DNA from: Phycisphaerae bacterium RAS1
GTDB taxonomy: Bacteria > Planctomycetota > Phycisphaerae > UBA1845 > Fen-1342
DNA: 64,000 bases
Assembly: GCA_007859745.1 (NCBI GenBank)
Contig: SMLU01000002.1
Location: 116,942-180,941 of the forward strand
Reading direction: 5' to 3'
Positions 40,473 to 43,627 of the stretch are shown one piece after another. Within the stretch, counting starts at the first letter, position 1. Each line of letters starts with the position of its first letter. The notes below the pieces were generated by a model, which ran no database searches, was not told where the DNA came from, and saw nothing but the letters and a program-made list of their open reading frames with translations. The position numbers and the translations under genes were made by a program.

Positions 40473-41876
40473 TCAGCGCGTGGCTGGGGCTGAGGCGGCG
40501 GCTTCCTGGCGCTGAGCTCGGGATGGAAGCTTCTCAAGGCGGGGCTTCAAGCCGTCTTCAAAAATATCATCGATCGGCGCCATGAGCGACGCGATTCGGC
40601 GTCTGAGGTCAGAGCGGCGCGCCGCCTGTTCCGCGGGCGGCAGTTTGACCAGCGCGGCGATATCTTCGTCCAGACGCGCGAACTGCGGTCGGCGTTCCGC
40701 GAGCTTTGGCGCGGCTTGTTCCTGGCACTGCTTGAGTATGCTCATCGCCCGCTCGCGCTGGCCATCGTCGAGACGGTATCGGCGGATGAACTCCAACGTG
40801 TACCGCTCCCACTCCGATACGCAAGTGGACCAGGTTCCCAATCCGCGCGGGCGGGATGCGAGCGCGGCCGGGTCGGCGGCGTTGCGGTTCCTTACCGAAA
40901 TCTGGCGCACGTGGTCCGCGGCTTCGAGAAACTTCGGCCCCACTTGCAGTTCACCGGCGCGCATCCGGCGCGTAAACTCGGTGCCGGTCACGATCTTCTC
41001 ACCATCCCAGCGCATCATGGCGACGGTCCGGTTCGCCGCGTCGACCTGTCGAATGACCGTGCCCACGTCGATTCCGATGTCGTAGGGCGTCAGGCGCGCG
41101 GAATGCTCGGGCCGATTGAATTCAACCGAATCCACGCGAATTATCTCGGCTGGTTCCTTACCATTGCGGAAGGCCTCCTTCAGCATCTCGATCCGCTCTG
41201 GAAACCAGCCGTCGCCGTACTGCTTCAGCGCTGTCCTGCTTTCAGCGATGAGATCCCCGTTGACGAAGCTCTGCACGCGGACCGCGTTCCAGTCCTTCTC
41301 GGCGTCAATCCAGAACCGGATTTCGTAGGATTCACCGATGCAACGAACAAGATGGAGGTGTCCGTCGCGCTGCTCGGTGAACCGCACGGCATCAAGCGAG
41401 CGCTCCTGCGGATCAAACAGAACGTACGCGAGCGAGTTGGCCGGGTAGCCCGTCGTCAGGCCAAAGCAGCGCGGGTCGGCGAAGCGACCCTTCGAGTTGT
41501 CCGCCGGTCGAACATCCGCCTCAGTGCTCTGTGCTTCGTGGCGGAAGAGCTGCCCGTCGCGATACAGCGAGAGAGTCGGGCCGAGTTCTGCCGGCGCTGG
41601 GCTGCCATCCGGATGACGAGCGAATACGCCCTCGTCGTCGCCCAGGGGCGTAAGCATCAGATCGCGATCGGCAAACTGGGAGACGAAGCGCCCCCAACCC
41701 TTCCGACTGCCAAAGTTAACTGGATCAAAATGGGCCCACCGAACAACGCCGCTGACCGTCGCCGCACGCCCCTCGTGAAGCGCCTTCAATGCCGGCGGAC
41801 GGGGATCTTGCGCAAGGCTGGTGCGAATGGCGACGAGGCTCACCAGCAGCGGACCGACGTATTTCTTGGTGGAAAT
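40473..41876 (-). CDS. Secreted hypothetical protein, probable AUU start
   Basis: 467 residues if started at ATT 41876. That start gives a textbook signal peptide ('MISTKKYVGPLLVSLVAIRT', cleavage after 'SLAQ') and a strong 'gaggtgg' six bases upstream. The first ordinary start, GTG 41843, would begin in the middle of the hydrophobic core and lose the two lysines. The mature protein is mixed alpha/beta ('YDIGIDVGTVIRQVDAANRT', 'FGLTTGYPANSLAYVLF') with a charged helical end ('QQAAPKLAERRPQFARL'-like), a type frequent in planctomycetes. Function unknown. Confidence 0.75.
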   Translation of the reverse strand: MSTKKYVGPLLVSLVAIRTSLAQDPRPPALKALHEGRAATVSGVVRWAHFDPVNFGSRKGWGRFVSQFADRDLMLTPLGDDEGVFARHPDGSPAPAELGPTLSLYRDGQLFRHEAQSTEADVRPADNSKGRFADPRCFGLTTGYPANSLAYVLFDPQERSLDAVRFTEQRDGHLHLVRCIGESYEIRFWIDAEKDWNAVRVQSFVNGDLIAESRTALKQYGDGWFPERIEMLKEAFRNGKEPAEIIRVDSVEFNRPEHSARLTPYDIGIDVGTVIRQVDAANRTVAMMRWDGEKIVTGTEFTRRMRAGELQVGPKFLEAADHVRQISVRNRNAADPAALASRPRGLGTWSTCVSEWERYTLEFIRRYRLDDGQRERAMSILKQCQEQAAPKLAERRPQFARLDEDIAALVKLPPAEQAARRSDLRRRIASLMAPIDDIFEDGLKPRLEKLPSRAQRQEAAASAPATR

Positions 41877-41983
41877 CAGGCGCCACCTCGCAAACCGTTA
41901 TTCGCCCGGCTTGGTCTAACCAAGGGCAATCGCAGGCGCGGCCGCTGGGTAGACACGATCAGCGACGCGCGCAACCCGACCAG

Positions 41984-42373: not shown

Positions 42374-42389
42374 GACCTGTCCTCCGATT

Positions 42390-42437
42390 GGCAGAATGGC
42401 AGAATGGCAGAATGGCAGAATGGCAGATTGGCAGATT
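42390..42437. repeat. Octamer tandem repeat (6 x 8 bp)
   Basis: GGCAGAAT four times then GGCAGATT twice, without interruption. It lies five bases upstream of the ribosome binding site of the Cys-rich gene on the minus strand. Confidence 0.95.
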
Positions 42438-42574
42438 GGACCAACCTACCAAACATACACGATAACACACTATGAGGGAAAGTAGCACAGTTTAGCTGAC
42501 TGTCAAGCAAAAAACCAGCGAAAACGACTGCCGGCCGCGTTCAAACTCGCTATTCTTATTCTCTCGGAGCTCCC

Positions 42575-43627
42575 ATGAACGACTCCCGCAAAAAGCGCCT
42601 GCTGGACTACGCCTCGTGCGCCGGCTGAGCCGGCAAGTTGCCGCAAACCGGCCTGGCGCAGGTGCTGCGACAGTTGACGCCTCAGAAACATCCCGACCTG
42701 CTTGTCGGAACCGACTCGTTCGACGATGCGGGGGTGTTTCGTCTCAGCGACGAACTGGCGCTGGTGCAGACGCTCGATTTTTTTCCGCCGCTGGTCAATG
42801 ACCCGTACGAGTTCGGCCGCATCGCCGCGGCCAACGCACTGTCCGACGTGTACGCCATGGGCGGCGAGCCGCTGACGGCGATGAACATCGTCGGCTTTCC
42901 GGACAAGGAGCTGGACTACGGCGTGCTGGTTGAGATTCTTCGCGGCGGGGCCGATGCGGTGCGCGAAGCGGGGGCGGTTCTGGTCGGCGGCCACAGCGTG
43001 CGCGATGCCGAGGTGAAGTTCGGCCTGTCGGTCACCGGCCGCGTGCATCCCGATCGCATCTGGACCAATGCGTCGGCCCGGCCGGGCGACGTGCTGGTGC
43101 TGACCAAGCCGCTGGGCAGCGGCGTGCTGTGCAGCGCCGCCAAGAGCGGAAAGATGCCGGAATCGGACCTGGCCGAGGCGATCCGTGTCATGCGCACGCT
43201 GAACCGCGCCGCGCGCGACGCGGCGGCCGGCGCCGGCGTGCACGCCTGCACGGACGTCACCGGTTTTGGGCTGGTCGGCCATGTGTTCGAGATGGCTGAG
43301 GGCAGCGACGTGACGATCACGCTGCACGCCGCGCGCGTCCCGCTTATGGCCCGAACGCTGGAGTTTGCGCGGCAGGGGGTCCTGACGCGGACGGCCAAGG
43401 CGTCGGCGGAACACGTGGGCGCAAGGCTCGTGGTTGATCCGGGCGTCGAGGAGGCGCTGGCGGGTGTGCTGATGGACGCGCAGACGTCCGGCGGTCTGCT
43501 GCTGTCGCTACCGGCGGATCGCGCCGAGGCGCTCGTGCAATCCCTTCGCGCGGTCGCGACGCCGTGTGCGGCGGTTGTCGGGGAAGTCATGCCGACGGCG
43601 GACGTGCGCGTGATCGTACGTCCCTGA
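42575..43627 (+). CDS. selD: Selenide, water dikinase (selenophosphate synthetase) with selenocysteine
   Basis: 350 residues, read through TGA 42626-42628 as selenocysteine 18. The start 'MNDSRKKRLLDYASCAGUAG' followed by Lys21 puts Sec three residues before the essential Lys, exactly where E. coli SelD has catalytic Cys17 before Lys20. Downstream are 'GTDSFDDAGVFRLSDELALV', 'GGHSVRDAEVKFGLSVTG', 'ACTDVTGFGLVGHVFEMAEG' and 'DAQTSGGLLLSL', all SelD motifs. ATG 42575 has 'ggag' upstream; the next start (TTG 42638) would lose the active site. SelD makes selenophosphate for Sec synthesis, so this genome should use Sec. A stem-loop follows the UGA. Confidence 0.93.
42626..42660 (+). promoter_or_regulatory. 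Candidate bacterial SECIS element
   Basis: Directly after the in-frame TGA, GCCGGC (42629-42634) can pair with ACCGGCC-region bases (42648-42654), leaving an apical loop of ~13 bases. Position and size fit a bacterial SECIS hairpin read by SelB. Confidence 0.65.

Follow-up and report, generated by a model that had tools for sequence, protein, structure and literature searches.

Bacterial start codons other than ATG, GTG and TTG are known from infC, the IF3 gene, which begins at AUU in E. coli and at ATC in Streptomyces (PMC5472188). In the same Streptomyces work sigR is described with a GTC start that is repressed by IF3, as shown by mutation and by IF3 dosage, and near-cognate codons are described as initiating poorly and being rejected by IF3 (PMC5472188). 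In Staphylococcus aureus, AUU and AUA starts have been mapped by Ribo-Ret, among them those of cvfC1 (AUU) and ccpN (AUA), and the non-canonical sites that were tested there gave about 10% of the AUG output in poor medium (PMC13009471). The new proteoform starts reported for Salmonella include four CUG and one AUU (PMC11005335). CUG accounts for about 0.024% of bacterial starts, and its output was 0.86% of that of AUG, according to work cited by PMC11497404. Among the literature matches listed, we found no report of near-cognate starts in Planctomycetota.

The gene described here lies in a stretch of 64,000 nucleotides from Phycisphaerae bacterium RAS1 (hereafter, the window). Like infC of E. 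coli and Streptomyces, it appears to have a start other than ATG, GTG or TTG with a Shine-Dalgarno sequence upstream; infC, however, is self-regulated through IF3 and its codon recurs in relatives, whereas the codon considered here is found in one gene of one genome. It shares with sigR a non-standard start outside infC, and with cvfC1 and ccpN an isolated near-cognate position on the chromosome with a Shine-Dalgarno match. The sigR start is backed by mutation and IF3 dosage and has a regulatory role, and those of cvfC1 and ccpN were mapped by Ribo-Ret, are conserved, were tested with reporters and carry extended Shine-Dalgarno motifs, while the present start is proposed from sequence and has no known regulatory role.

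The reading frame and its start region

Direct reading shows that the frame is open on the minus strand from a TAA at 41900-41898 to the stop codon at 40475-40473. Its features are as follows.

40473..41879, minus strand: coding sequence from CTG (from ATT, to 41876), stop included, for a probably exported LolA-fold protein of 467-468 aa (open frame, 13 matches in its own genome including itself, 22-member alignment)
41898..41900, minus strand: in-frame TAA, upstream limit of the open frame (sequence)
41884..41889, minus strand: GAGGTG, candidate Shine-Dalgarno sequence (sequence, register scoring)
41877..41879, minus strand: CTG, candidate start, slightly preferred (Shine-Dalgarno register 7, AGGAG scale)
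41874..41876, minus strand: ATT, candidate start of the preliminary description (aligned with paralogue ATGs; Shine-Dalgarno register 10)
41841..41843, minus strand: GTG, earliest canonical start of the frame, within the predicted signal peptide (sequence)
41811..41879, minus strand: predicted signal peptide with STKK n-region, YVGPLLVSLVAI core and cleavage between SLA and Q (hydropathy; cleavage assigned by motif)
41037..41807, minus strand: predicted LolA/LolB/RseB-type half-barrel domain, residues 25-281 (AlphaFold2, VIA-align 2, Foldseek)
40491..40937, minus strand: predicted C-terminal helical region, residues 315-463, the part to which most weaker relatives match (model, family matches)
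41876..41956, minus strand: possible 26-codon leader ORF, from GTG 41956 to TGA 41878-41876, its stop overlapping CTGATT; probably chance

On the minus strand the order of codons is TAA (41900-41898) CGG TTT GCG AGG TGG CGC CTG (41879-41877) ATT (41876-41874), followed by TCC ACC AAG AAA TAC GTC GGT CCG CTG CTG up to GTG (41843-41841). The 7 codons that separate the TAA from ATT include no ATG, GTG or TTG, and a canonical in-frame start upstream of the putatively exported N-terminus is therefore absent. GAGGTGG occupies 41889-41883, six bases before ATT and three before CTG; the six bases GAGGTG are, we presume, complementary to the usual 3' tail of 16S RNA. The preliminary description had proposed ATT as the start of a secreted protein, six bases after GAGGTGG and with a stop 7 codons upstream. 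This geometry was confirmed on the minus strand, as were the coordinates, the complete signal peptide upstream of GTG and the lack of ATG, GTG or TTG up to the stop. It had passed over the CTG at 41879-41877, directly before ATT, and the TGA of another frame (41878-41876) that overlaps CTGATT.

The surroundings of the start gave no further signals. Between 40200 and 42600 no site resembles a promoter and a single one, on the plus strand, a terminator, which is fewer than in shuffled sequences; RNA structure around the start gave no signal (z +0.50); and the single Rfam match at gathering cut-offs in the whole window is a tRNA elsewhere. Inspection rules out a frameshift from an upstream ATG, because there is no ATG between the stop of the upstream gene and CTG; GTG and TTG are present there in other frames.

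Two neighbouring features were also recorded. A gene for a cysteine-rich, probably secreted protein of 129 aa (42373-41984, minus strand) has just upstream a tandem array of TGGCAGAA (42389-42439, 6.4 copies, 97% matches). The plus-strand gene at 42575-43627 resembles selD and has a TGA within its frame at residue 18 (MNDSRKKRLLDYASCAGUAGKL...), probably coding for the catalytic selenocysteine; simple ORF calling puts the start of this gene at TTG 42638.

Near-cognate starts elsewhere in the genome

A census was taken over 1.2 Mb, or about 22% of the 5.5-Mb genome, which hold 764 stop-to-stop ORFs. Where an ORF had no canonical start with a Shine-Dalgarno sequence ahead of it, the codons upstream of its first canonical start were counted. 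A 5-mer Shine-Dalgarno match precedes 210 of all 10187 census codons, and since this background is about 2%, such a match alone is weak evidence. By codon, matches were found for CTG in 5/125 (the present gene included), ATT in 0/80, ATC in 1/119 and ATA in 0/44, the register window of 5-9 leaving out the ATT of our gene (register 10). The excess of CTG is not significant (5/125 vs 210/10187, P 0.12). Besides the present gene, the matched candidates are four CTG and one ATC, and the 764 ORFs give no sign that ATT or CTG generally serves as a start.

The infC gene of this genome (L057) reads TGA ACA AAG GAA GGT GTC CGA ATC CAC CAG AAT CTG CGT TGC AAC GAA. From the stop to the conserved N-terminus it lacks canonical codons, and by its sequence it appears to start at ATC. 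Non-standard starts thus do seem to occur in this genome, and the comparison with infC made in the preliminary description is apt. In 20 of the 26 infC loci of the family (L043-L068, one per genome with a match), the aligned start, or a position not more than one codon away, is occupied by ATC (18 loci) or ATT (L052 and L058), a pattern already familiar for infC. The open frame upstream is free of canonical codons in twelve of these 20 (11 ATC, 1 ATT); the remaining eight have one there, which may be the start. The tally includes L044 and L045, seen in the sequence but missed by the pattern search, and L049, one codon off; it leaves out L066 (match two codons off) and L069 (a further, incomplete infC in G004). 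In L052 an ATG lies four codons upstream of ATT, and in L047 a CTG start is possible, with canonical codons further upstream in frame. The gene at 41879 looks like an isolated case, in this genome, of a near-cognate start outside infC.

Such isolation bears on the explanation that survives best after our own, which is unlikely but not negligible: an assembled base may be wrong, or the strain may recently have lost its start by mutation, the normal codon being ATG at the ATT position or ATG, GTG or TTG at the CTG position. ATT is a single substitution away from ATG, the codon found here or in the adjoining position in the nearest paralogues (see below), and the CTG position is one change from each canonical start. 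With six such bases in each of about 5000 genes, and an assumed rate of one error per 100,000 bases, we estimate about 0.3 errors of this kind, similar to the expected count of natural rare starts. CUG starts are so rare and weak (the 0.024% and 0.86% given in PMC11497404) that a wrong base is a priori about as likely, and CTG and ATT are not in general use here. Against an error, the frame is intact across 467 codons, infC reads as expected for the IF3 gene, and stop-to-stop calling covered 86% of the 1.2 Mb, so that the assembly does not look poor, although single substitutions are outside the reach of this measure.

Export signal, homologues and predicted fold

A complete predicted export signal, STKKYVGPLLVSLVAIRTSLA followed by Q, begins upstream of GTG 41843. 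Over 10 residues, hydropathy reaches a maximum of 2.33 when translation is taken from the upstream start, against 1.32 when it is taken from GTG. In all 21 homologues of alignment A1 (22 members with the present gene), with starts chosen by hand, this maximum is 1.80 to 3.34 in 20, above that of the GTG form; the exception, L006, has 1.16. Further, the 11-codon stretch that begins with ATT and ends before GTG has a coding score of +4.08, a value reached by none of 115 windows upstream of first ATGs vs 31% of 3740 coding windows. A screen of the 764 ORFs for a charged, hydrophobic segment that begins before the first canonical start returned five, and by eye the present gene is the only one with a complete signal peptide cut by that start. 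The other four were dismissed by eye, their first canonical start lying within or at the beginning of a core that is still usable. These features suggest that the product is exported and cleaved after SLA.

The gene has 13 matches in its own genome, itself included (the best others 43% and 41% identical), and 26 of the 27 family genomes, its own among them, have a match, many of these to the C-terminal part only. The nearest paralogues, L003 and L004, are about 41% identical to it. The ATG of L003 lies at the same distance from a conserved D-RP-AL motif as our ATT and is aligned with it without a gap; that of L004 is one residue nearer and is aligned with one gap. Alignment A2, on which this rests, took in one codon before each of these ATGs, which pulls the ends together, but residue counts made without that codon agree on both positions. 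The preliminary description had asked whether homologues have ATG at the same place: L003 does exactly and L004 within one residue, while more distant relatives vary, with 17-36 residues up to a conserved leucine. With the GTG form at 19 residues and so inside this range, the argument from homologue positions rests on the nearest paralogues, compared with which the GTG form is 10-11 residues short. Both of them start at ATG and neither has a near-cognate start, so that conservation of the codon is without support.

Searches of the organism's own genome, the family genomes and further contigs found no relative closer than about 43%. The first 59 residues, searched in 61 genomes, convincingly matched the gene itself only (best other match, E 0.007), and a wider contig search added one relative, 30% identical, from a Planctomycetota MAG. 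Start positions were examined by hand in 24 loci besides this one; alignment A1 leaves out L015, L016 and L040, which have no clear start or an in-frame TGA, and the partly matched L012-L014, L018, L027 and L029-L039. L016 (G015) is a nearly full-length relative with one in-frame TGA, its frame either broken or recoded.

An AlphaFold2 model built from the 22 sequences (mean pLDDT 85.3, pTM 0.67; N-terminus of low confidence) has the half-barrel of the LolA/LolB/RseB superfamily, and this predicted mature domain starts at about residue 25, just after the predicted cleavage site. The best match in VIA-align 2 is P. gingivalis LolA3 (9tp6_A, Z 13.5, rmsd 3.9, 203 aligned), tied with the DUF1329 protein 4z48_A (Z 13.1) and 3bk5 (Z 12.5), and E. 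coli RseB (2p4b_A) follows at Z 10.1 (rmsd 3.5, 171 aligned); many LolA chains are also among the matches. Foldseek gave 2w7q_B at E 6.5e-7, with TM-scores by target length of 0.39-0.61 for the Lol rows. Lol proteins and RseB act outside the cytoplasm, and a signal peptide is therefore to be expected on a protein of this kind. Since ependymin-related proteins and VioE share the fold at Z 7-8, the fold alone is insufficient to prove export; nonetheless the mature domain is predicted to have a fold that is mostly that of exported proteins, and the earlier view of a secreted product agrees with both the signal peptide and this model.

At the level of sequence the relationship is faint. Neither Pfam nor NCBIfam gave any match for the protein, to a curated LolA/LolB/RseB model or otherwise; LolA_like was found in one of the 22 alignment members at E 0.033, and a PDB profile search gave 9tp6_A at E 0.034. 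Weak Pfam and NCBIfam matches in single relatives (PS-DH, TreZ and others), and two weak PDB matches besides 9tp6_A, were taken as chance. The likeness to LolA/LolB/RseB proteins is thus one of predicted fold over residues 25-281, while the C-terminal helical region and the lack of a curated match set the protein apart. Together with L003-L042, the gene at 40473-41879 makes up an expanded LolA-fold family with a C-terminal helical region.

Much of this evidence bears on a less probable explanation than a wrong base, namely that translation begins at GTG 41843 and the signal peptide is short or absent (MSLVAIRTSLAQ). GTG is the first canonical start, and the lack of a Shine-Dalgarno sequence before it says little, since a canonical start preceded by a 5-mer was found within the first 80 codons in only 190/764 ORFs. 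The N-terminus that it gives is matched in shortness by L021 (18 residues to the conserved leucine) and L005 (17). However, its hydropathy is below that of 20/21 homologues, with an arginine inside the core, it falls short of the nearest paralogues, and it throws away a well-formed signal peptide with coding-like codons. Taken together, the absence of a canonical start, the ATGs of the paralogues, the hydropathy, the coding score and the fold indicate that the start is probably CTG or ATT and not GTG, and we put at about two in three the probability that a LolA-type exported protein is translated from the CTG-ATT pair at 41879-41874.

Choice of codon and meaning of the start

To compare the two codons, Shine-Dalgarno registers were scaled on the first ATGs of the 1.2 Mb. 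A Shine-Dalgarno sequence lies at a distance seen for starts before both, CTG being in the commonest registers of the genome and ATT in the tail. Register 7, that of CTG (with the 6-mer GAGGTG), is found for 7/377 first ATGs vs 27/57927 background codons, and register 10, that of ATT, for 3/377 vs 49/57927; these small counts favour CTG by roughly 4:1. The alignment with the paralogues, which sets ATT and not CTG opposite ATG, is a slight point for ATT. On balance of sequence CTG seems somewhat the likelier, as a tentative choice, with ATT the less likely of the two, and both codons may be used. Of the earlier proposal, then, a start upstream of GTG at a codon other than ATG, GTG or TTG stands as probable; ATT itself is not established, as CTG adjoins it in a better register.

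A very improbable variant is that the leader ORF passes terminating ribosomes to CTG or ATT by reinitiation: its TGA overlaps CTGATT as in the common NTGA overlaps (118/377 first ATGs here), and leader genes close to start codons have been reported in bacteria including Planctomycetes (PMC4833913), but inside genes 21-24% of xTG are followed by A, so that the overlap says little, beyond about 41950 the leader frame does not resemble coding sequence, and the leader genes reported are non-overlapping, with a peak at 10-11 bp and least with UGA (PMC4833913).

Under direct initiation at the CTG-ATT pair, the initiator tRNA would read CTG or ATT a few bases after GAGGTG, placing formylmethionine at the codon chosen, and the product would carry a Sec-type signal peptide, with cleavage after SLA. 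Initiation at near-cognate codons is inefficient and IF3 discriminates against it, so we would expect, by analogy, a low output of the protein that rises when IF3 is short. A bolder and doubtful extension is that, within a paralogous LolA-fold set, a single copy has exchanged its ATG for a tandem CTG-ATT, which would bring its dosage under IF3; the sister genes nearest to it keep ordinary starts. If true, such a switch would be a natural means of tuning the expression of an envelope protein, and among the genes examined a start of this sort is otherwise convincing only in infC.

The kind of start is already known, and the instance is probably new: a gene that is ordinary apart from a rare near-cognate start. 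Should the base prove to be an assembly error, the value would be limited to an annotation note. If the start is real, the gene adds one more candidate, in Planctomycetota, to the short list of bacterial near-cognate starts outside infC. A canonical-codon start call inside a signal peptide hides the export of the protein, and export signals together with paralogues would then reveal starts that canonical-codon gene callers have misplaced in this way.
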